From contig NZ_CTDX01000015.1 of NCBI RefSeq assembly GCF_001375515.1, forward strand, positions 62,001 through 126,000: DNA of 64,000 nucleotides. The letters are read 5' to 3'. Below the pieces are notes generated by a model that was given only the letters and a program-made list of their open reading frames with translations, was not told the origin of the DNA and searched no databases. Position 1 is the first letter of the stretch; each line of letters starts with the position of its first letter. Below are positions 1,934-63,607 of this stretch, in pieces. This DNA is from Bacillus kwashiorkori. GTDB lineage: Bacteria > Bacillota > Bacilli > Bacillales > Caldibacillaceae. A program made the position numbers and the translations under genes.

Positions 1934-1975
1934 TTGATTTGCATCAATTTTTTTTTCGAGTAACGCCTCTATACT
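1934..1975 (+). promoter_or_regulatory. FNR-type box and -10 element upstream of P-type ATPase
   Basis: TTGAT-TTGC-ATCAA at 1934-1947 is a perfect match to the E. coli FNR consensus TTGAT-N4-ATCAA. A TATACT -10 hexamer lies at 1970-1975, so the box centre (1940.5) falls 29.5 bases before the -10, that is about -41.5 from the expected start. This is the classical position for class II activation by CRP/FNR proteins. There is no good -35. The inference is anaerobic (or NO-related) activation of the ATPase gene. Confidence 0.8.
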
Positions 1976-2019
1976 AGAATTATCAACAACAAGGAAATAG
2001 AAAAATGGAGGAGAACAAG

Positions 2020-3870
2020 ATGCAAAGATTTATTTTAAGCAGGAAAAATCAAATTACGCTAATCAGTGCGATTTTAATTGCCTTTGGGTTTTTTGCGCGG
2101 TTTGTTTTAGACAACAGCACAATTTTCAATGGGTCACTCATTATTGCATCCATTTTTGGTGTGGCACCGATTGCGATTCAAGCATATCAAGCATTGAAAG
2201 TAAAAGTCGTTAGTATTGATGTATTAGTTACCATTGCTGTTACAGGCGCATTAATCATTCAAAACTATGAGGAATCGGCCATTGTTACGTTTCTTTTTTT
2301 ATTCGGTTCATTTTTAGAACAGCGCACCTTGAACAAAACTCGTTCCGCTATAAAAGAGTTGACGGAAATGGCTCCAGAAACCGCATTAAAACAGATGGAT
2401 AACGGGGAATTTGAAGAAGTAGAAGTCGATGATGTCGAAGAAGATGATATTTTACTAGTAAAAACTGGTGCAAAAGTCCCGGTAGACGGAACAGTTCTAT
2501 CTGGTGACGGTCATATTAATGAAGCCAGTATCACAGGAGAGTCGGTACCAGTTAGCAAATCAAAAGGTTCGGAAGTTTTTGCGGGGACGATATTGGAAAA
2601 TGGCACCATACAAATTCGTGCTGACCGTGTTGGCGAAGACACAACATTCGGTAGAATAATTGAATTAGTGGAAGAGGCACAAGATTCCAAATCAGAGGCA
2701 GAACGATTTATTGACCGTTTCTCAAAATATTATACACCAGCCGTTCTAATTCTTGGATTTATCGTGTGGTTATTCTCTAAAGATATTGAACTCGCTATTA
2801 CCATTCTCGTATTAGGATGCCCCGGCGCATTAGTTATCGGCGTCCCAGTTTCTAACGTTGCCGGTATCGGAAACGGTGCCCGTAATGGTGTATTGTTAAA
2901 AGGAAGTGAAGTGATAAACGATTTTAGCAGAGTAGACACGGTCGTTTTTGATAAAACAGGAACATTAACAGTAGGGAATCCTGAAGTGGCAGAACAAGAA
3001 TTTTACGGAGCAAATATAGAAGAAGCTCTTGGCTTTTTAGCAAGTGTGGAGCGCGAATCAGATCATCCACTAGCAAAAGCAGTACTTCAACATATTGGTG
3101 ATACGACAATCTCCACTGTTGAAAAAACAGAAGTTGTTAAAGGTGGAGGGATTATCGCGCAAGTAAATGGTCACCGAGTAGCAGTAGGGAATGTCGCTTT
3201 AATGAAAAAGGAAAATATCCCTTTAAACGGTACGGTACAAAAAGATGTAGAACGGTTCGAGCGAAATGGGAATTCACTTGTCTTAACTGCTGTTGATGGG
3301 GAATTAAAAGTGCTCATGGGTATTCGAGATAAAATACGTCCCGGTGTGAAAGAAGATTTACAAAAACTAAAAAAACTTGGTGTAAAAAACCTCGTCGTTC
3401 TGTCTGGGGACAATCAAGGAACCGTTGACTTAGTGGCGCGTGAACTAGGGTTAACCGAGGCACACGGGCACATGCTTCCAGAAGATAAATCAGCCTATAT
3501 TGGAAAGATGCAAGCAAAAGGTCAAATTGTTGCCTTTGTTGGTGACGGTGTGAATGATAGTCCTTCATTGGCATTAGCGAATATCGGTATTGCTATGGGA
3601 AGTGGAACGGATGTTGCGATTGAGACATCGGATGTCGTTTTAATGAACTCTGACTTCAGTCGCTTACCACACGCATTAGGGTTAACGAAATCAACTGCAA
3701 GAAACATGAAGCAAAATATCCTCATTGCAGTAGGCGTCGTATTAGTGTTGCTTGCCAGTCTATTATTTAGCGAATGGATGAACATGTCGATCGGAATGTT
3801 AGTTCATGAAGCAAGTATTTTAGTGGTTATTTTAAATGGGATGAGGTTGTTAAGATACCGTTTGCGATAA
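2020..3870 (+). CDS. Heavy-metal translocating P1B-type ATPase with CPG motif
   Basis: A 616-residue P1B ATPase that should move a transition-metal ion across the membrane. Start ATG 2020 is preferred over ATG 2005 because the GGAGGAG in between is its ribosome binding site. Visible motifs are TGES (about 172, actuator), the phosphorylation loop DKTGT (Asp about 311), the soft-metal HP locus (SDHPLAKA, His about 349) and GDGVND (about 508). No N-terminal HMA domain is present. The membrane metal site reads GCPGALVIG (Cys about 267) instead of CPC or SPC, and the last helix has HEAS (about 596) as in the Co/Fe/Zn (P1B-4-like) group. The partners are probably the separate HMA proteins just downstream. 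Substrate cannot be assigned; iron, cobalt or zinc is more likely than copper. Confidence 0.9.
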   Translation: MQRFILSRKNQITLISAILIAFGFFARFVLDNSTIFNGSLIIASIFGVAPIAIQAYQALKVKVVSIDVLVTIAVTGALIIQNYEESAIVTFLFLFGSFLEQRTLNKTRSAIKELTEMAPETALKQMDNGEFEEVEVDDVEEDDILLVKTGAKVPVDGTVLSGDGHINEASITGESVPVSKSKGSEVFAGTILENGTIQIRADRVGEDTTFGRIIELVEEAQDSKSEAERFIDRFSKYYTPAVLILGFIVWLFSKDIELAITILVLGCPGALVIGVPVSNVAGIGNGARNGVLLKGSEVINDFSRVDTVVFDKTGTLTVGNPEVAEQEFYGANIEEALGFLASVERESDHPLAKAVLQHIGDTTISTVEKTEVVKGGGIIAQVNGHRVAVGNVALMKKENIPLNGTVQKDVERFERNGNSLVLTAVDGELKVLMGIRDKIRPGVKEDLQKLKKLGVKNLVVLSGDNQGTVDLVARELGLTEAHGHMLPEDKSAYIGKMQAKGQIVAFVGDGVNDSPSLALANIGIAMGSGTDVAIETSDVVLMNSDFSRLPHALGLTKSTARNMKQNILIAVGVVLVLLASLLFSEWMNMSIGMLVHEASILVVILNGMRLLRYRLR

Positions 3871-3878
3871 ATGAGAAA

Positions 3879-3935
3879 AAAATCAGGGGAAATGTTCCAT
3901 CGTTCACTACGAATTTTCCCCGAAAATTTTTTAAA
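3879..3935 (+). terminator. Intrinsic terminator after the P-type ATPase
   Basis: GGGGAAA and TTTCCCC arms flank a roughly 25-base loop, followed by a run of T. It separates the ATPase from the metallochaperone unit, which then has its own FNR-type box. Confidence 0.55.
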
Positions 3936-3937
3936 AC

Positions 3938-3979
3938 TTGATTTCTATCAATTTTATTTAACGAAATTTAAGCTAAACT
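3938..3979 (+). promoter_or_regulatory. Second FNR-type box and -10 upstream of the HMA operon
   Basis: TTGAT-TTCT-ATCAA at 3938-3951 is again a perfect TTGAT-N4-ATCAA site. TAAACT at 3974-3979 is the likely -10. Box centre to -10 is 29.5 bases, identical to the site at 1934, placing the box near -41.5. The two units therefore look co-regulated by one CRP/FNR-family activator. Confidence 0.8.
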
Positions 3980-4034: not shown

Positions 4035-4268
4035 ATGCAAAAAGCGGTCATTCAATTAGAAACATTAGCTTGTCCATCCTGTATGCAGAAGATTGAAAAT
4101 GCAGTTAAGGGAGTGAACGGTGTTAATCAAGATAGTGTCAAAGTACTTTTCAATGCAAGTAAAGTAAAACTAGATTTTGATTCGGAAACAGTAGTAATAA
4201 ATGAAATTGAAAAAGTAATTCAAGATTTAGGTTATGAAGTCCTCAAATCAAAAGTAAAATCTGCTTAA
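4035..4268 (+). CDS. Small heavy-metal-associated (HMA) domain protein, copy 1
   Basis: A 77-residue soluble protein made of a single HMA (ferredoxin-like) domain. The metal-binding motif is C13-P-S-C16, replacing the usual M-x-C-x-x-C with L-x-C-x-x-C. HMA proteins of this size shuttle soft metals to P1B ATPases, here presumably the ATPase immediately upstream, which lacks its own HMA domain. Start ATG 4035 follows AAAGGGG. It is nearly identical to the gene at 4656, so the pair arose by duplication. Confidence 0.85.
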   Translation: MQKAVIQLETLACPSCMQKIENAVKGVNGVNQDSVKVLFNASKVKLDFDSETVVINEIEKVIQDLGYEVLKSKVKSA

Positions 4269-4310: not shown

Positions 4311-4613
4311 ATGATAGAACAAAATAAAACCTTTACAGAAGTCTTTAATAACTACTATGAAAAATTGGAATTATTCTCAAAGGCAATCACTCGTGCCCAC
4401 GGTAAAAATCACCCAGAAGCGTTTGAAGTAAGAGAATTATTTGAAGCAATTAGTAAGAAGGTCAAAGAAGATGTCACAAAAATAGACTTGGAGAACGAAT
4501 TTACCCAATTACGCAAAATCACAGACAACTATACGATCCCAAATAACGTTTGTGAAACATACGCAGCTACTTTCCATATGCTAGAGGAGCTAGATAAAGT
4601 ATATCAAGCTTAG
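4311..4613 (+). CDS. Short hemerythrin/RIC-like protein lacking most iron ligands
   Basis: A 100-residue protein whose N-terminal half has the signature H30-G-K-N-H-P-E of the repair-of-iron-centres family (ScdA/YtfE). Its C-terminal half (QLRKITDNYTIPNNVCETY..FHMLEELDKVY) matches the later part of that fold. The usual HM..EE, EHD and HIHLENNILFP ligand segments are missing or altered, and the protein stops where the last ligand helix would continue. It should therefore not hold a normal di-iron centre. Start ATG 4311 follows AGGAAGGA. It lies between two HMA genes in one FNR-boxed unit, suggesting a metal or Fe-S role under low oxygen. Family assignment is by motif only. Confidence 0.6.
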   Translation: MIEQNKTFTEVFNNYYEKLELFSKAITRAHGKNHPEAFEVRELFEAISKKVKEDVTKIDLENEFTQLRKITDNYTIPNNVCETYAATFHMLEELDKVYQA

Positions 4614-4655: not shown

Positions 4656-4889
4656 ATGGAAAAAGCAACCATTCAGTTAGAAACATTATCATGTCCATCT
4701 TGTATGCAAAAAATTGAAAATGCAGTAAAGAGCTTAAACGGAATTAATCAAGATAGTGTTAAAGTATTGTTTAATGCGAGTAAAGTAAAAGTAGATTTTC
4801 ATTCAGATGTTATTGCAATTAATGAAATTGAAAAAGCAATTGAAGATCTTGGCTATTCTGTTCTGAAATCAAAAGTAAAACCTGCTTAA
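4656..4889 (+). CDS. Small heavy-metal-associated (HMA) domain protein, copy 2
   Basis: A 77-residue single-domain HMA protein with C13-P-S-C16, very similar along its whole length to the protein at 4035. It is preceded by AAAGGAG. It forms the third gene of the FNR-boxed unit 4035-4889, closed by the terminator at 5006-5043. The likely role is metal delivery to the neighbouring P1B ATPase; having two copies may adjust dosage or separate loading functions. Confidence 0.85.
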   Translation: MEKATIQLETLSCPSCMQKIENAVKSLNGINQDSVKVLFNASKVKVDFHSDVIAINEIEKAIEDLGYSVLKSKVKPA

Positions 4890-5077: not shown

Positions 5078-5686
5078 TTATCGGGATTTCAAATGTCCAA
5101 AGAAGTTCTTTAAGGATGAATGATAATACAAATCAACGAGCGGTTCTATGAATTTAGAATAATGCTTTTTTCGATTTATTGGAACATCAAATTTTATGAT
5201 GAAAAAACAAGTAGAAAGACATGAAAGAATGATCGTCAATATCGCATTTTTGGAAAACAATTTACTGAATATGAACATTAAAGTGAATAATAGGCTAGAC
5301 CAAAATACATTCCAACGATGAGCATACATAATTAGTTTTTGCTTATGTGCTACAAATTCAACAAATGACGCACCGACAACCCATTTAATCGTATAAATTA
5401 TTTGTTTAAATAAAGAATTAGGTGCATTCGATAAATATGTAAGTATAATTAAAGGGGTGACTATAACAATGTGGATTATCCTTACAATTGCCCACTTGAA
5501 ACCAAATGGAGTGAACTCCCAAACGAGATGTCTTCTGCATAGCAAGTAGTAAAGGGAATTAAAAGTACCAACATAAAGCATATTCTTATAATATTTAGGA
5601 ATATCACTCCACGATTTACGACTAAAAAAGATGATACCTAGTATTAAATATAAATGTTTATATTTTAACTTTTCTCGCCTTTTCAT
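5078..5686 (-). CDS. CBO0543-type small membrane protein
   Basis: A 202-residue protein with about four or five hydrophobic helices and basic loops. It is of the type annotated CBO0543 family in Clostridium and Bacillus, whose function is unknown. The recognisable feature is a late helix pattern with Glu, then W, then (F/Y/W)-S (here VEFVAHKQKLIMYAHRWNVFWSS). Related patterns appear in the proteins at 9573, 23441 and 28924. It is a monocistronic minus-strand gene; the upstream region 5687-5760 is short and AT-rich. Confidence 0.6.
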   Translation of the reverse strand: MKRREKLKYKHLYLILGIIFFSRKSWSDIPKYYKNMLYVGTFNSLYYLLCRRHLVWEFTPFGFKWAIVRIIHIVIVTPLIILTYLSNAPNSLFKQIIYTIKWVVGASFVEFVAHKQKLIMYAHRWNVFWSSLLFTLMFIFSKLFSKNAILTIILSCLSTCFFIIKFDVPINRKKHYSKFIEPLVDLYYHSSLKNFFGHLKSR

Positions 5687-35366: not shown

Positions 35367-36557
35367 ATGAAAATCGTTGGAATCGTTGGATCAAATGCTG
35401 ATTTTTCCTATAACCGTCTTTTATTAGAGTACATTGCGAAAAAGTTTAAAAAACTAGTGGAAATCGAAGTGCTAGACATTAAAGATGTACCACTGTTTAA
35501 CCAGTCAAATGACCAAACAAATAGTGAACCTATCCAATATTTAAATAAAAAGATTTTAGGAGCTGACGGGGTCATTATTGCGACACCAGAATACAATCAT
35601 ACTATTCCATCTGCTTTACAAAGCGTAATTGAATGGTTATCATTTAAAATTCATCCACTAGATGGGAAACCGGTTATGATTGTCGGGGCTTCCTATGATG
35701 TGCAAGGTTCTTCTCGCTCCCAATTACATTTACGCCAAATTTTAGATGCACCTGGAGTTAACGCAGTTGTTATGCCGGGTAACGAATTTTTATTAGGTGA
35801 AGTCCATAAAGCTTTTGATGAGGAAGGCAATTTAAAAGATGGACAAACGGTGCAATTTTTAGAAGTTTGTTTGAAAAAATTCATCCGTTTCATCAATGTT
35901 GTGAATGTCTTGAACGCACCAGAGGGCATGAAGGATTTATCAAGCACGGAAGATTTACACGCTACTGGCAAAATTGATACCACTATTGAAGGTGTCGACA
36001 TGTTAGCCGATGACTGGGTAGAGCAAGCAGCAGAAAAAACAGGTGCAGTCGAAGGGAAAACATATGTCAAACTGGACCGAGGTATTTTAACCGTAGATCA
36101 ACTTAATTATTTTCTCAATTCCATGCCAGCGGAATTAACTTATGCGGATAGCAATAACCAATTCCTATACTATAATCATAAATATGATGCGGAAGAAATG
36201 TTAGCATCGCGGCGACCAGAACAAGTAGGGAGTCCGCTCGCAAACTGCCACCCAGAAAGAGTGTATAGTGGTGTAGCTTGGGTTATTCAGCAATTACGTA
36301 CTGGCAAACAAGAGGTAGTACGAACTCATGTGCCTACGCACGGACCAGATAAGTTCGTTGTTCACAGTTATCAAGCAATTCGTGATAAAGAGGGAAATTA
36401 TCTCGGAATAAATGAATATGTACAAGATATTAAACCAATTATTGACTGGTACTTAGAACAGACAGGTCAACAATTAGTTGGTGGTGGCGTCGATGCCGTC
36501 TCTGGTGCAACATCTAAGGTGGACACCGTATCTGGGGCCACGGTAAAAGATAATTAA
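35367..36557 (+). CDS. FMN reductase-PAS fusion with tandem ApbE flavinylation motifs
   Basis: A 396-residue multidomain protein. Residues 1 to about 185 are an FMN-reductase domain ([32 protein letters not shown]). After a linker (186-238), residues about 240-356 form a PAS domain of the PAS_10/DUF438 kind, with the characteristic NCHPERV (293-299) and [11 protein letters not shown]. The last 25 residues carry D376-A-V-S-G-A-T382 and D386-T-V-S-G-A-T392. Both are perfect forms of D-x-x-(S/T)-G-A-T, whose final Thr receives FMN from ApbE. No signal peptide, so the protein is cytoplasmic. The next gene is an ApbE without signal. Predicted: a redox enzyme or sensor with up to two covalent FMN groups plus one bound FMN. 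A terminator follows at 36567. Confidence 0.85.
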
Positions 36558-36566
36558 GGAATTATG

Positions 36567-36592
36567 AAAAGAGGTCGGCCTGGCCTCTTTTT
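36567..36592 (+). terminator. Intrinsic terminator between the reductase and apbE genes
   Basis: AAAAGAGG (36567-36574) pairs with CCTCTTTT (36584-36591) around a 9-base loop. The apbE gene downstream therefore probably has its own promoter or depends on read-through. Confidence 0.75.
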
Positions 36593-36846
36593 CGTCTTTG
36601 CAATAGGTTTTGCTCATTTGGTACGATATTGCTTGAAAAAGTTCTATATCCAAATTATTCATCAAAACGATAAATGACAAAAAATGATGATCCACAAGTA
36701 ACTATGGTTGAGAATTTTTTTAGCAAACAGTCAATTGTTTTCGCTTGCAACTATGTATAACAACTACTTTTTCATAGAACAGTCTGATACCATTGATCAA
36801 TTTTCAAAAGTTATCTGGCTCTGGACGAAAGGGTGATACATTCACA

Positions 36847-37782
36847 ATGCAAAGTCGTGAAGTTCATATGATGGGAACGATTATTCAATTATCGGTTCAA
36901 CATAAATATGCCCGTTTTGTTTTAGAAGAACTTATTTTACGCTTGAAGGAATACGAACAACGGTTTAGTGCCCATGATCCTCAATCAGAATTAATGCAAG
37001 TGAATCGTAATGCAGGGATTCAACCGATAGCGGTACATCCTCAATTATACGAATTAATTAAACTTGGTAAAATACATAGCACTGCATCAAGTAGTATGTT
37101 AAATATTACGATCGGTCCTTTAGTAAAAGCATGGCGGATTGGGTTTCATGATGCCCAAGTTCCAACATCCCAACAGATTCAATCGTTATTGAGTAAAACA
37201 AATGCCAATGATATCATTCTAGATGATAAAAATCAAACCGTTTTTTTAAAACATCGTGGAATGTTTATCGATTTAGGGGCGCTCGCAAAAGGATTTATTG
37301 CGGATCTTCTAATTGATGACTCACAATCAATGGGTGCCGAAGCGGGACTTATAAATTTGGGCGGAAATGTGATGACATATGGGAAGTCTCCCAATCATAA
37401 AGATGGATATTGGCGAATTGGAATTCAACACCCATTCCGACCCCGTGGTAAAAATATAGCGATTTTGCGGGCACTCCACCAGTCTATTGTTACATCAGGA
37501 ATTTATGAAAGAAAATTTACGTATAACAATGAAACTTATCATCATATTTTAGACCCTGCTACTGGATATCCAGTGAAATCGGAAATTGCTGGATTAACGA
37601 TCGTATCAAAAAAATCGGTAGACGGTGAGATATGGACGACCCGTCTATTTGGCCAACAACCACGGATGATCATTGATACATTAAACCAACTAGAAGACAT
37701 CGCCGGAATTGTTGTCACGACAACTGGAGAGCTTTATTATTCGGAGTCTTTGAAACCATATTTACTTGAGACATCCATATGA
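36847..37782 (+). CDS. apbE: FAD:protein FMN transferase, predicted cytoplasmic
   Basis: ApbE transfers FMN from FAD to a Thr/Ser in D-x-x-(S/T)-G-A-T sequences. ATG 36847 (MQSREVHMMGTIIQ), with AAAGGG about 12 bases upstream, fits the family start; TTG 36793 is possible but has no site. Neither form has a signal peptide or lipobox. Family blocks are MGTI, NITIGPLVKAWRIG, DLGALAKGFIAD, INLGGNV, TSGIYER, HHILDPATGYPV and a Mg-site block SVDGEIWTTRLFG, which is unusual (commonly D-A-L-S-T-A). The catalytic Asp and Thr positions seem kept. The substrate is very likely the tagged reductase encoded upstream. Confidence 0.9.
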   Translation: MQSREVHMMGTIIQLSVQHKYARFVLEELILRLKEYEQRFSAHDPQSELMQVNRNAGIQPIAVHPQLYELIKLGKIHSTASSSMLNITIGPLVKAWRIGFHDAQVPTSQQIQSLLSKTNANDIILDDKNQTVFLKHRGMFIDLGALAKGFIADLLIDDSQSMGAEAGLINLGGNVMTYGKSPNHKDGYWRIGIQHPFRPRGKNIAILRALHQSIVTSGIYERKFTYNNETYHHILDPATGYPVKSEIAGLTIVSKKSVDGEIWTTRLFGQQPRMIIDTLNQLEDIAGIVVTTTGELYYSESLKPYLLETSI

Positions 37783-58934: not shown

Positions 58935-59741
58935 TTAAAGTGGGCTATTGAATCGCAAAAACAACAAGCTGACGGTTAATAAGACCATAATGCACAAACT
59001 GATTGTGTCCCGTAACTGCCAATGTAGTTTTCGGAATGAGGAGCGCCTTATTCCAGACTGATAGCCTCTAACTTCCATTACATTAGCTAATTCCTCCGCA
59101 CGATTTAATGAACCGACAAATAATGGTAGAAAAACAGGAACTAATGCTTTCATTTGTTGAAACAGTCCGCCTTCCCCGAATGATGCCCCTCGCGCCCGTT
59201 GTGCATCCATCACTTTTTGTGTTTCATCCATTAAATTCGGTATAAATCGTAAAGAAATCGAAAGCATTAACGCGATATCGTCTACAGGTAACTTGAAAAG
59301 ACGCAGTGGTTTTAATAATGAATTAATTCCATCGGTCAAGTCAATTGGTTTTGTCGTTAATGTAATCACCGTGGATAGGAAGATAATCATAACAAAACGA
59401 AAGAAAATGAAAATACCATTAATAATTCCGAATTGTGAGATGGTAATTGGTCCCCAATCAATATATATTTTTCCGCCAGCAGTAAATAAGATTTGTAAAC
59501 ATACAGTAAATAGTATTAACCAAATTAATGGTTTTACCCCGCGGACATACGTCTTGAATGAGATCCCGCTAAGATACATCACTGTAAAGGTAAATAAAAT
59601 TAGTAAAAGATATGTTAACCAGTTGTTTGCAATAAATAAAATAAAAATAAAATAAAAACCAGCGACTAATTTCGCCCGTGGATCTAATTGATGCATAATA
59701 GATTGACCAGGAAAATATCTGCCAAGAATTAATTTATTCAT
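58935..59741 (-). CDS. ecfT: ECF transporter transmembrane component
   Basis: A 268-residue EcfT. ATG 59741 (MNKLILGRYFPG) with GAGAGTGG is preferred to ATG 59804. Five or so helices, SLRFIPNLMDE..KVMDAQRARGA and FLPLFVGSLNRAEELANVMEVRGY carry the two A-R-G-containing coupling helices that contact EcfA. It is the third gene of an ecfA1-ecfA2-ecfT unit. In the Listeria electron-transfer locus an ECF module with RibU supplies extracytoplasmic flavin; no S component is visible here. Confidence 0.92.
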   Translation of the reverse strand: MNKLILGRYFPGQSIMHQLDPRAKLVAGFYFIFILFIANNWLTYLLLILFTFTVMYLSGISFKTYVRGVKPLIWLILFTVCLQILFTAGGKIYIDWGPITISQFGIINGIFIFFRFVMIIFLSTVITLTTKPIDLTDGINSLLKPLRLFKLPVDDIALMLSISLRFIPNLMDETQKVMDAQRARGASFGEGGLFQQMKALVPVFLPLFVGSLNRAEELANVMEVRGYQSGIRRSSFRKLHWQLRDTISLCIMVLLTVSLLFLRFNSPL

Positions 59742-59796
59742 AAACACACCACTCTCTATTTGAGTTACAATAATTTGACTGGGGTCATGCGTCTTA

Positions 59797-60660
59797 TTAA
59801 ACAAGCCCCGCCATCATTAACCCATTAGCTAAATCATCAACGGTTAAACAAATTTTTGGCAGCCGAACACCGGTCTCCTTTTCGATACGGATTTGAAGTT
59901 TACGGGCATCGGGTAATGATAAATGATATTTTTCCAATAGCGCTAGATTAGCAAAAATTTTGTTCGGCACATCGTGAGCAACGACTTGTCCTTTATCCAT
60001 AATAACTACTTGCTCCGCATACTCTGCCACATCTTCCATATCGTGCGTCACTAAGATCGTTGTGAGTCCGCGTTCCATATGCCATGATTTAATGAGATGC
60101 ATAATTTCTCTTTTTCCATTCGGATCTAAACCAGCACCTGGTTCATCTAAAACGAGAATATTTGGTTTCATTGCTAAAATTCCCGCAATGGCAACACGAC
60201 GTTTTTGACCACCAGATAAGGAAAAGGGTGATTTATGTAGTATCTCTTCTTCTAAGCCGACTTGTTGGATTACTTGTCTAGCGATTTTTTTTGCTTCATT
60301 TAATGGAATACCGAAATTAAGCGGACCAAAACAAATATCTTTTTCAACTGTCTCGGCAAATAATTGTGCTTCGGGAAATTGAAATACCATTCCCACCCGT
60401 TGACGCACTTCTTTTAGCTCTTTTTTACTACTAGCTGCTGAAATAGTCGTTGTTCCTACGTAAACTTCGCCTTGTTTCGGAAGAAGTAATCCATTTATTA
60501 CTTTTAAAAGACTAGATTTCCCCGCGCCAGTATGACCTACGACAGCAGTAAATGATTTTGATTGGATAGATAAATCGACAGCTTGTAAGATGAGCGGGCT
60601 TCGAATCGGACCTACTTGGTAGTCAGCAGAAACGTTGTTAAAATTTATTTGCATAGCCAT
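59797..60660 (-). CDS. ecfA2: ECF transporter ATPase A2
   Basis: A 287-residue energy-coupling ABC ATPase with Walker A GHTGAGKSS, signature LSGGQKRRVAIAGIL, and Walker B ILVLDEPGAGLDP. The C-terminal DLANGLMMAGLV end is usual for EcfA2. Its start overlaps the end of ecfA1 by 16 bases (60645-60660). It couples ATP hydrolysis to vitamin or flavin movement together with EcfA1 and EcfT. Confidence 0.93.
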   Translation of the reverse strand: MAMQINFNNVSADYQVGPIRSPLILQAVDLSIQSKSFTAVVGHTGAGKSSLLKVINGLLLPKQGEVYVGTTTISAASSKKELKEVRQRVGMVFQFPEAQLFAETVEKDICFGPLNFGIPLNEAKKIARQVIQQVGLEEEILHKSPFSLSGGQKRRVAIAGILAMKPNILVLDEPGAGLDPNGKREIMHLIKSWHMERGLTTILVTHDMEDVAEYAEQVVIMDKGQVVAHDVPNKIFANLALLEKYHLSLPDARKLQIRIEKETGVRLPKICLTVDDLANGLMMAGLV

Positions 60661-61457
60661 CGCACCATTTCATCTTCTGTCATATATTCATTAGGGACGT
60701 TTTTTCCAAGTTCTCGTAATTTCCGCCGCAACCGTTCAGAAAAGGGGGGTTCTAGTTCTGCTTGTGTCATAAATATTTCTTTTGGAAGACCGCTATTGAC
60801 TACTCTGCCATTATTTAAGACAATTAATCGATCCGCTGCGACCATTTCATTTTTATCATGTGTAATGGAAACAATCGTTATTTGTTTCTTTTGCTTTAAT
60901 TGTTTTAGAGCAATGAGTAGATCTTGTCTGCTAGCTGGATCTAACATAACAAATGCTTCATCAAGCAACAATATATTTGGATCTAATGCTAGGGCACTTG
61001 CGATGGCAACCCGTTGTTTTTGTCCCCCAGAAAGTTGAGAAGGATCATGCAGGCGAAAATCATCCATACCGACTAGCTTTAGTGCTTCATCTACTTTTGC
61101 ACGCATCTCATCATACGGTAAGTTTAAATTTTCTAATCCGAATGCAACATCGTCTTGAACCGTTGTACCAATAAATTGATTGTCAGGATTTTGAAATACG
61201 ATCCCAATTTTTCGTCTAATTTCCCAAATAGTTTGCTGGGATAGTTTCAACCCATCAATGGTAATCTCGCCTTGTTGAGCTGTTAATAAGCCGACTAAGA
61301 TTTGGGCTAAAGTGGACTTTCCGGACCCGTTTTTGCCAACAATAGCCACCCATTCACCTTTATATATGTTAAAAGAAACCGATGATAAAATATCGGTCTC
61401 TGTACGTTTATCATATTGAAATGTCACATTTTCTACTTGAATAATCGGGGTACTCAT
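60645..61457 (-). CDS. ecfA1: ECF transporter ATPase A1
   Basis: A 270-residue ABC ATPase with Walker A GKNGSGKST, Q-loop VFQNPDNQFIGTTVQDDVAFGLEN typical of EcfA1, signature LSGGQKQRVAIASAL and Walker B ILLLDEAFVMLDP. It ends overlapping ecfA2. This set is not in the ribosomal-protein cluster where Bacillus ecf genes usually lie, supporting a dedicated role with the flavin genes upstream. Confidence 0.93.
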   Translation of the reverse strand: MSTPIIQVENVTFQYDKRTETDILSSVSFNIYKGEWVAIVGKNGSGKSTLAQILVGLLTAQQGEITIDGLKLSQQTIWEIRRKIGIVFQNPDNQFIGTTVQDDVAFGLENLNLPYDEMRAKVDEALKLVGMDDFRLHDPSQLSGGQKQRVAIASALALDPNILLLDEAFVMLDPASRQDLLIALKQLKQKKQITIVSITHDKNEMVAADRLIVLNNGRVVNSGLPKEIFMTQAELEPPFSERLRRKLRELGKNVPNEYMTEDEMVRWLCK

Positions 61458-61558
61458 ACTAACTCCACCTTTAAAAAATCACTGTTCGTCAAACACAAAA
61501 AATATCATATCGTAAATAAAACTACTTAGCAATACGGATAAAGGCTTTCCTTTGAAAT

Positions 61559-62497
61559 TTAAGCAATGATCGACACAACAAGCATGGCGATGAATGCACC
61601 ATTAACTAAAACTAAATTTTTCACAGCGAGTGGGAAAGTCTCAGCTTTCGCTTGTTTTAAGTTGAATTTATAAACATGTTGATAGACAGGAATTGCCGCC
61701 AATAAAGATAAAAGGATAATTGGTGGTAAAATATCAAAAATAACAGCGGTTATAATTGCAACAAACGATAAAGTATATAGTATATTAAAAAGCCAAATGG
61801 CATATTTTTTACCGATATAAAAAGGTAATGTAAAACGGTTGTTTTTAATATCATCCTCTAAATCACAAATATTATTGGCAAGCATAATGTTTGCAATCGT
61901 AAAGACGCATGGTAGAGAAATCCAAAGAATTTGTAACAGTAATATTAAGTCCATTTGTAGACTTAAGAATCGTCCTTCCCAAATGATATTGGCAATGCCT
62001 TGATCGTATGCATTGACATAAATGGTCAGAAATACAATTCCAAAGCCCATTGTTACCCCAGAGAAAATTTCCCCGAGTGGCATTCTGGACAGTGGAATGG
62101 GTCCGAATGTATATAAAATTCCAATGGCGAAACAAACCATTCCAATAAGCAGTACGAGCAAATCTGTACGAAATACTAACCAAATTCCGAGTGCCGTTGC
62201 AATGGTTAATAAACTAATAATCGTAAAAATAACAATCCCCTCGGGAACATTCTTTTGCCCGATAATATTTCTTTCTTTTTTATATTCGACGGATTTCGCT
62301 TTTCGATAATCCATGTAGTTATTGATCGCTGTAGTTGTCATATCAAAAATCAGCATCGCAGCAAAAAATATAAGTGTATTAAGAGGATGGAAAGTTTCAA
62401 ACCGATAAACTGTAAATAAAAGCCCAACTAAAAATGGAAAAAAGCTAGCCAATTTCGTTTGAATTTCCACCAACTTCAAAAAAGTTTGTAAGGACAT
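61559..62497 (-). CDS. UbiA-family prenyltransferase (DmkA/MenA-like)
   Basis: A 312-residue enzyme with nine helices that attaches an isoprenoid chain to an aromatic acid, as in menaquinone or demethylmenaquinone formation. The first Asp motif is degenerate (NNYMDYRKAKS instead of NDYFD), and the second is DLEDDIKNNR. In flavin-based extracellular electron transfer clusters a UbiA protein makes the dedicated quinone. It lies between apbE and the ecf genes. A MenA house-keeping function is an alternative. Confidence 0.88.
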   Translation of the reverse strand: MSLQTFLKLVEIQTKLASFFPFLVGLLFTVYRFETFHPLNTLIFFAAMLIFDMTTTAINNYMDYRKAKSVEYKKERNIIGQKNVPEGIVIFTIISLLTIATALGIWLVFRTDLLVLLIGMVCFAIGILYTFGPIPLSRMPLGEIFSGVTMGFGIVFLTIYVNAYDQGIANIIWEGRFLSLQMDLILLLQILWISLPCVFTIANIMLANNICDLEDDIKNNRFTLPFYIGKKYAIWLFNILYTLSFVAIITAVIFDILPPIILLSLLAAIPVYQHVYKFNLKQAKAETFPLAVKNLVLVNGAFIAMLVVSIIA

Positions 62498-62522
62498 AAT
62501 CCGGTTCCTTTCTGAAAAATTT

Positions 62523-62544
62523 GAATTGTTGGGGACAGTCCCCC
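62523..62544. repeat. GGGGACAGTCCCC palindrome, copy 6
   Basis: GAATTGTTGGGGACAGTCCC plus CC lies between the ubiA-like start and the apbE stop, in the same form as the copies at 27517 and 28266. Confidence 0.85.
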
Positions 62545-62545
62545 G

Positions 62546-63607
62546 CTAATAGTTGACTACTTCGAATTCGCTGTTTGTTACTTCGAATGTTTCTTTTAAT
62601 CCAGATGTTAAGTAAATTTTTTTATCTTTACTGACGAATATTGCTTCGACATCGTCCATCGTTTCGACAAATTTCAATCCACCATCAATTCCTTTTGAAA
62701 AAATCGCTGTTGATAAGGCGTCCCCATCCATTGATTTTTTCGTGATTACTGAAACACCGGCAATATCATTATTAAATGGATATCCATCTTCTGGGTTAAG
62801 TAAATGGTGATATGTTTCCTCATCGACTTTTAAATAACGTTCATAAATTCCTGATGTAACGATGGATTTATTTGATTCGCGGATTACTCCGATCACTTCT
62901 CCTCTTGATAAGAAGGGGTCTTGAATTCCTACACCCCATTCTTCTCCACTAGATGGACTTTTTCCCATTACGAAAATATTCCCACCGAGATCAATAATCG
63001 CCGTAGTAACACCGTTTTTCTTTAATAATTCTACTACTTCGTCCGTGATAAATCCTTTCGCAATAGCACCGAGGTCTAATTGCATATTTTCCTTATTTAG
63101 GAAAACAGTTTGTTCTTCTTTATTCATCTTCACTTGTTTATAGTCAATTAGTGGCAATACGTCATTTATTTCCGATTGGGATGGTTTCCGAGCATCCGGA
63201 AAACCAATACGCCATAAATTTGTTAACGGTCCGATAGAAATATCAAAAGATCCAGCTGATTTTTCACTGTAGTCTAATCCTGTTTCAATAAGTTCAAAGA
63301 TGTCCTTTGATACTTTCACCGGTTGCTTTCCAGCTTGATCATTAATTTTATCAACTTCCGAACTCGCTTCATTAACGGTAATGGAATTTGCTAATGTTTC
63401 CATTCGTTTAAAAGCAGCGTCTAGGACAGTTTCTTTATCTTTGTCATAAATTTTTAAATTTACGATTGTTCCCATCATAAATTCCGTTCTTTTATATGGA
63501 TTAGTTAACAAGTTTTCGTTTGTATTTTTATTTTGTCCTTGATTGCACCCAGCTAAGTTAATGAAGAGAAGTATGATAATGACAAAAGCTAATTTTTTTT
63601 TCACCAA
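62546..63607 (-). CDS. apbE: Lipoprotein FAD:protein FMN transferase
   Basis: A 353-residue ApbE/FmnB. The N-terminal signal ends in the lipobox LAGC (Cys about 21), so it is anchored outside the membrane. Family blocks MMGTIVNLKIYD, FDISIGPLTNLWRIG, LDLGAIAKGFITD, IIDLGGNIFVMG, TSGIYER, HHLLNPEDGYP and MDGDALSTAIFSKG are all present, including the Mg site D-A-L-S-T. It should flavinylate the FMN-binding protein encoded just upstream (63773). It differs from the signal-less ApbE at 36847. Confidence 0.95.
   Translation of the reverse strand: MVKKKLAFVIIILLFINLAGCNQGQNKNTNENLLTNPYKRTEFMMGTIVNLKIYDKDKETVLDAAFKRMETLANSITVNEASSEVDKINDQAGKQPVKVSKDIFELIETGLDYSEKSAGSFDISIGPLTNLWRIGFPDARKPSQSEINDVLPLIDYKQVKMNKEEQTVFLNKENMQLDLGAIAKGFITDEVVELLKKNGVTTAIIDLGGNIFVMGKSPSSGEEWGVGIQDPFLSRGEVIGVIRESNKSIVTSGIYERYLKVDEETYHHLLNPEDGYPFNNDIAGVSVITKKSMDGDALSTAIFSKGIDGGLKFVETMDDVEAIFVSKDKKIYLTSGLKETFEVTNSEFEVVNY

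Follow-up and report, generated by a model that had tools for sequence, protein, structure and literature searches.

The 64-kb window (the whole stretch of DNA that was analysed, 64,000 nucleotides) contains two perfect FNR-type boxes which are very probably operators of an FNR-like (Flp-type) activator, most likely the protein P0001 encoded elsewhere in the same genome, acting at position -41.5 on two promoters. In sequence comparisons the box, its fixed distance to the -10 hexamer and the regulator gene were found to be conserved jointly across Bacilli, Clostridia and plasmids. We infer that P0001 binds and activates at the boxes: a P0001 dimer would bind each box at -41.5 and contact RNA polymerase in the manner of a class II activator, thereby switching on two promoters with a -10 but without a -35, the first for a P1B ATPase with a CPG motif and the second for two chaperone-like HMA proteins together with a small protein of the RIC-like kind.

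Two boxes, two promoters and their genes

The E. coli FNR consensus, TTGAT-N4-ATCAA, was found to have exactly two perfect matches in the window, both on the forward strand: TTGATTTGCATCAA at 1934-1947 (centre 1940.5) and TTGATTTCTATCAA at 3938-3951 (centre 3944.5), with similar flanks at both sites (AACTTGATTT..ATCAATTTT) and with counterpart boxes upstream of related ATPase genes and of related HMA/RIC-like operons, respectively. The distance from box centre to the start of a -10 hexamer read from the sequence was 29.5 bases at both promoters, the hexamers being TATACT for the ATPase promoter (1970-1975, +), where the +29.5 geometry is conserved in relatives, and TAAACT for the HMA operon promoter (3974-3979, +). 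Taking the hexamer as -12 to -7, and so reckoning from the spacing to the -10 rather than from mapped start sites, both boxes lie at -41.5, the class II activator position of E. coli FNR and CRP, and no recognisable -35 was seen 17 bp upstream of the hexamer at either promoter (ATTTTT and ATTTTA stand there). Both sites are thereby supported as predicted FNR-type operators in class II geometry. The earlier note had described two perfect boxes with an identical -41.5 geometry standing before a P1B ATPase gene and an HMA/RIC-like operon; the geometry was confirmed at 1934 and 3938, and the placement is supported by the gene calls.

The first promoter precedes a gene (2020-3870, +) for a P1B-type metal ATPase without an N-terminal HMA domain and with the motif GCPGALVIGVPVS, called by profile match (TIGR01525, 564 bits, above cut-off) and by the alignment of relatives; its domain set and CPx motif, here CPG, are those of P1B heavy-metal ATPases. 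A longer ORF runs from 2005, and the start is probably the ATG at 2020 (after GGAGGAG) rather than the ATG at 2005, because most relatives align there. The CPG motif was present in all 80 named ATPase loci of relatives (the best 80 of 498 matches). A reading of the ATPase as copper-, zinc- or iron-specific on the strength of this motif was considered and not adopted, the names in databases and papers disagreeing.

Three forward-strand genes follow the second promoter, encoding a small HMA-domain metallochaperone-like protein with a CPSC motif (4035-4268; PF00403), a 100-aa RIC-like four-helix protein with a conserved HGxxHPE and Cys81 (4311-4613) and a second small HMA-domain protein with CPSC (4656-4889; PF00403). 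The RIC-like protein was called from a sub-cut-off match to TIGR03652 (41.7 bits, cut-off 204.7, with the best stretch at model positions 166-199 of 216), from alignment and from a predicted structure; it reached no Pfam or NCBIfam cut-off, and its sequence score falls short of RIC/YtfE membership. Among 44 distinct proteins of its family, including that of the window, the HG and Glu of HGxxHPE were invariant and a cysteine stood at position 81 in 43. The predicted structure had four helices (pLDDT 90.8, from a 30-sequence alignment), and the nine best VIA rows were all RIC proteins (ScdA, YtfE), at 13-17% identity over 99-100 aligned residues and with Z of 10.6-11.5, values which helical bundles reach without kinship; the best structural match was ScdA (Z 11.5, rmsd 2.3, 100 aligned), and Foldseek alone gave a best E of 0.012. 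The protein thus shares with the RIC/YtfE/ScdA iron-sulfur repair proteins the HGxxHPE region, a weak TIGR03652 match and a ScdA-like predicted fold, but it has only 100 aa, and the aligned part stops at ScdA residue 210, short of the RIC domain end. Since a Z of such size is no proof in a helical bundle, it is the structural matches and the partial sequence match taken together that point to a shortened RIC.

A gene for a CBO0543-family membrane protein (window 5078-5686, -) adjoins the HMA operon, and a small membrane protein gene that resembles it, by eye only, adjoins the P0001 gene (L020 8714-9229, +). Elsewhere in the window, ABC and ECF-like transporter genes (by eye), a UbiA-family prenyltransferase gene (61559-62497) and an ApbE gene (62546-63607) lie in a row on the reverse strand (58935-63607), which we take to resemble flavin-based extracellular electron transfer clusters; a gene for an FMN reductase fused to a PAS domain, adjoining a second ApbE gene, was found by Pfam at 35367-37782 (+).

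That two perfect boxes at the same offset would be unlikely by chance, as had been proposed, was borne out by shuffling. With a composite site defined as a perfect box together with a TAnnnT at +29.5 that agrees with TATAAT in 4/6 positions or more, the window held 2 composites, and 200 dinucleotide-preserving shuffles of the window yielded 2 in total and never two together (0/200); shuffled upstream regions of the two genes gave a perfect box in 2/5000 and 3/5000 cases. Chance palindromes in AT-rich DNA would explain other counts well enough, as the motif alone at one mismatch or fewer was not enriched in the window (8 seen vs 7.4 expected) and the perfect matches genome-wide were only about twice those of the reversed control pattern (17 vs 8), most of the others lying inside ORFs. 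Set against the composite shuffles, the fixed spacing and the cross-species conservation described below, this explanation of the two sites is refuted for practical purposes, and we give it next to no weight. Genome-wide enrichment was dropped as evidence on its own, the relaxed TTGAY-N4-RTCAA pattern giving 25 sites vs 18 for the reversed control, near control level.

The earlier note had also suggested a search of the genome for further sites; sites there are (these 25), but the only intergenic targets with a -10 at +29.5 before a gene were the two in the window. Three others (C15:327423, C4:92714 and C16:14345) lay outside long ORFs and had no -10 at +29.5 (C16:14345 judged by eye), and those at L003 and L005, with a hexamer of at least 4/6 matches at +29.5, were rejected as targets, being directed away from genes or intragenic. 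No box was found at the Dps-like gene on contig C16 of this genome, the assembly of which is 2.78 Mb in 16 contigs and 80% complete.

Joint conservation of box, spacing and regulator

The ATPase was traced in relatives, and the 80 named loci (again the best 80 of 498 matches) came from Bacillaceae, Enterococcus, Tetragenococcus, Leuconostoc, Weissella, Clostridia and Tissierellia MAGs and a few Anaerolineae MAGs. In 64 of the 80 loci, at least one gene for the ATPase, an HMA protein or a RIC-like protein had TTGAY-N4-RTCAA no more than 220 bp upstream; by gene, such a box preceded 39/80 ATPase, 47/86 HMA, 21/56 RIC-like, 8/15 Dps and 15/35 regulator genes, and in the same upstream regions the reversed pattern gave 0 in every gene class and shuffles at most 1. 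The remaining 16/80 loci, with no box within 220 bp, count against the activator reading. Spacing was conserved with the box: TAnnnT stood at +29.5 in 92/95 distinct segments (75/95 matching TATAAT in at least 5 positions), and among 64 representatives of less than 70% identity it stood at exactly +29.5 in 61, with at least 5 TATAAT positions in 47, the next best offsets reaching 16/64.

Regulator and ATPase were found to occur together. Across 398 class-level genomes, 39 had both, 4 the ATPase only, 9 the regulator only and 346 neither (39/43 ATPase genomes; Fisher value 1e-40, kinship ignored), and the two genes lay at most 5 kb apart in 35 of the 39, the genome of the window being one of the four in which they are unlinked. 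Similarly, within 61 genomes (own and relatives), the regulator subfamily (E 5e-47 or better) was present in 6/6 genomes with the ATPase (E at most 1e-150) vs 1/55 without it. In class-level genomes, with ATPase matches taken down to 42% identity, the composite was present at 36/38 ATPase loci where the genome has the regulator, a count which omits the own genome and G021 (not fetched again). Loss of the box where the regulator is absent was considered and rejected, as the composite was retained in 4/4 ATPase loci where the regulator search found none, which weighs against the activator reading; among these four genomes, G255 has a regulator of 39% identity at the locus, and none was seen in the other three. 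Altogether 156/174 composites in 91 loci, which were chosen around the ATPase or the regulator, preceded ATPase, HMA, RIC-like, Dps or regulator genes.

We read the sites as serving class II activation because of this fixed -41.5 spacing, the absent -35 and the linkage to a regulator. CRP/FNR proteins are capable of repressing, and the sites could serve mainly repression or bind an unrelated factor with a similar palindrome, but both are very improbable given that the spacing, kept in 61/64 copies, the missing -35 and the regulator linkage fit activation.

The same arrangement was found on plasmids, where a search of 72,556 records found relatives of the ATPase on 416 and of the regulator on 406. 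The order Dps, Crp/Fnr, HMA, ATPase, with a composite before all four, was read in two inspected records, one from E. faecalis and one from L. monocytogenes, and an S. equorum plasmid had composites upstream of an HMA, an ATPase and a second HMA gene. A similar gene order is tabulated in the accessible part of a Listeria plasmid paper (PMC5663981). The module neighbours on plasmids included CadD, CDF, CopB or FetB genes; CadD, CDF and CopB speak only for a metal-resistance setting and nothing more specific.

One genome, G007, is by its sequence an expanded regulon. Its contig C14 (L038, L039) carries three ATPase copies of 86-89% identity to that of the window, and the genome also holds extra HMA copies and a number of regulator genes, with boxes close to Spx/ArsC-like and AhpD-like genes (named by eye) and to qNOR genes. 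A box with GATAAT at +29.5 stands before its qNOR-type nitric oxide reductase gene; no qNOR-type target was seen in the genome of the window.

The regulator P0001 and its signal

P0001 (228 aa, contig C14 of the genome of the window, unlinked to the window locus) was the sole CRP/FNR gene detected in that genome, the cNMP-domain family finding P0001 only and the HTH family finding P0001 plus two sub-cut-off matches. Its domains (PF00027, 87 bits; PF13545, 59.6 bits; both over cut-off) place it in the CRP/FNR superfamily, and its HTH contains E-x-x-S-R (TTPETLSRK), as did 33/34 of the regulator ORFs listed (the exception being L058). A CRP/FNR-family gene with such a recognition helix was what the earlier note had said should be sought, its absence to be taken as speaking against the idea, and P0001 is such a gene. 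The promoter of P0001 itself has a one-mismatch box only, and no -10 stands at +29.5 from it; a look beside the window operon revealed no trace of a former local regulator. Against P0001 as the regulator are these two results, its lack of linkage to the locus and the 80% completeness of the assembly, from which another regulator may be absent.

P0001 has cysteines C3, C8, C14 and C112. Among 39 distinct homologues only Cys14 and Cys112 were invariant (39/39), with the other N-terminal cysteines not so conserved (the C8 position is Cys in 8/39), and this pair, one N-terminal and one internal, fits the two-cysteine pattern of FLP-type proteins. As for the four-cysteine [4Fe-4S] ligand set, P0001 has four cysteines with a different first spacing and its group keeps two; judged on these alignments it is probably not a textbook FNR, as the four-cysteine set of E. 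coli FNR is not conserved in its group.

These data bear on whether P0001 could be a true O2/NO-sensing FNR, with a [4Fe-4S] cluster on C3, C8, C14 and C112 and the module active in the absence of oxygen and shut off by O2 or NO. Almost the whole of P0001 was aligned by phmmer with an FNR-type regulator of known structure, which we take to be Aliivibrio fischeri FNR, with C8, C14 and C112 falling on cysteines and the CX5C spacing kept. Such a sensor would also suit the box, which has the E. coli FNR consensus, the many carriers whose names mark them as anaerobes or fermenters, and the qNOR promoter of G007. This reading is nonetheless distinctly unlikely, given that only two of the cysteines are conserved throughout the group, that the first gap in P0001 is CX4C vs the CX2C of E. 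coli, and that the best NCBIfam model for P0001, Fnr PRK11161, scored 82.8 bits vs a cut-off of 228.

A regulator built on an FNR chassis and sensing metal directly (e.g. Zn, Cd, Cu or Fe, by a Cys/His-rich N-terminal tail plus Cys112), which would activate export and chaperone genes, is a little less unlikely. His/Cys-rich tails precede the invariant Cys14, the tail being often His-rich in P0001 homologues, the composites serve almost exclusively the metal gene set (at loci chosen around ATPase or regulator), and the plasmid modules adjoin the CadD, CDF, CopB or FetB genes given above. In E. faecium CX 2-6 a gene named zosA is the most Cd-induced in the accessible part of PMC8554106, and its equation with the window-type ATPase is only a candidate link. 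Weighing the other way, the His-rich tail is missing in G021 and G038 and modest in P0001 itself, and Dps and qNOR targets suit redox equally.

We give about even odds to the view that a reduced or oxygen-poor cytosol acts as the signal via Cys14 and Cys112 and that the gene products deal with a divalent metal, iron being the probable one. The cysteines, and the occurrence of relatives in fermenters and anaerobes, make a redox or low-oxygen signal plausible, and direct metal sensing is nearly as plausible, since tails are often rich in His and the targets centre on metal. A link from low oxygen or NO to metal export or delivery, as the earlier note had it, was not supported as stated, given that no cysteines other than Cys14 and Cys112 are invariant and that many tails are rich in His; a thiol/redox signal or a metal signal is just as possible, and the qNOR promoter of G007 fits NO or anaerobiosis in that relative. 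As to the metal handled, the Dps gene, the RIC-like protein and a FetB neighbour on one plasmid lean towards iron.

Relation to known systems

The predicted promoters resemble E. coli FNR class II promoters in the TTGAT-N4-ATCAA box, its -41.5 position and the E-x-x-S-R of the regulator, but the four-cysteine cluster set of E. coli FNR is not conserved in the P0001 group, the targets of which form a small metal-centred set. FlpA/FlpB of Lactococcus lactis and FLP of Lactobacillus casei are likewise FNR-like, and publications connect them with metal and oxidative stress; this likeness is drawn by description and not by sequence. The title of a paper on L. lactis joins zinc uptake, oxidative stress and FNR-like proteins, and the accessible part of PMC3616900 treats the FlpA regulon under metal homeostasis. 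Neither a target set of ATPase, HMA, RIC-like and Dps genes nor the strict -41.5 geometry was found in the accessible parts of these accounts. FlpS of Streptococcus suis is also an FNR-like activator in a Gram-positive, but the target named there is the arginine deiminase operon; the accessible part of PMC5039431 reports a change of the Dps-like dpr in the FlpS mutant, describes many Gram-positive FNR-like proteins as having two cysteines rather than four, and calls the iron-sulfur cluster mechanism in such proteins disputed.

Amongst transporters, PfeT and FrvA (P1B4 Fe(II)-export ATPases) and FezB of ferrosomes are likewise P-type ATPases/transporters tied to iron, but the regulators named for them in the accessible parts of PMC7762939 and PMC12574912 are Fur and/or PerR, and the window ATPase is given here as a CPG-motif P1B ATPase without a class number. 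That metal genes of lactic acid bacteria can be under FNR-like control has already been published, as far as the accessible parts of the papers on FNR-like proteins go, and the present system is a widespread variant of such control. An ATPase/HMA/RIC-like/Dps regulon with fixed geometry was not found described in the literature searched, which covered few subscription papers.

We tentatively suggest, at somewhat less than an even chance, a mobile Bacillota metal module (CPG-type P1B ATPase, HMA chaperones, mini-RIC and Dps) governed by a dedicated class of FNR-like regulators without the four-cysteine cluster, which would sense metal or thiol state via a Cys/His tail and one internal cysteine and would gate metal export or storage at an invariant -41.5 promoter. 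The system offers a clean testable regulon of one regulator, one box and one fixed position, with two target promoters here and another four on the Enterococcus and Listeria plasmids that were inspected. In laboratory strains, the two-cysteine regulators and their predicted targets could settle both the dispute over the cluster and the metal of the CPG ATPase.
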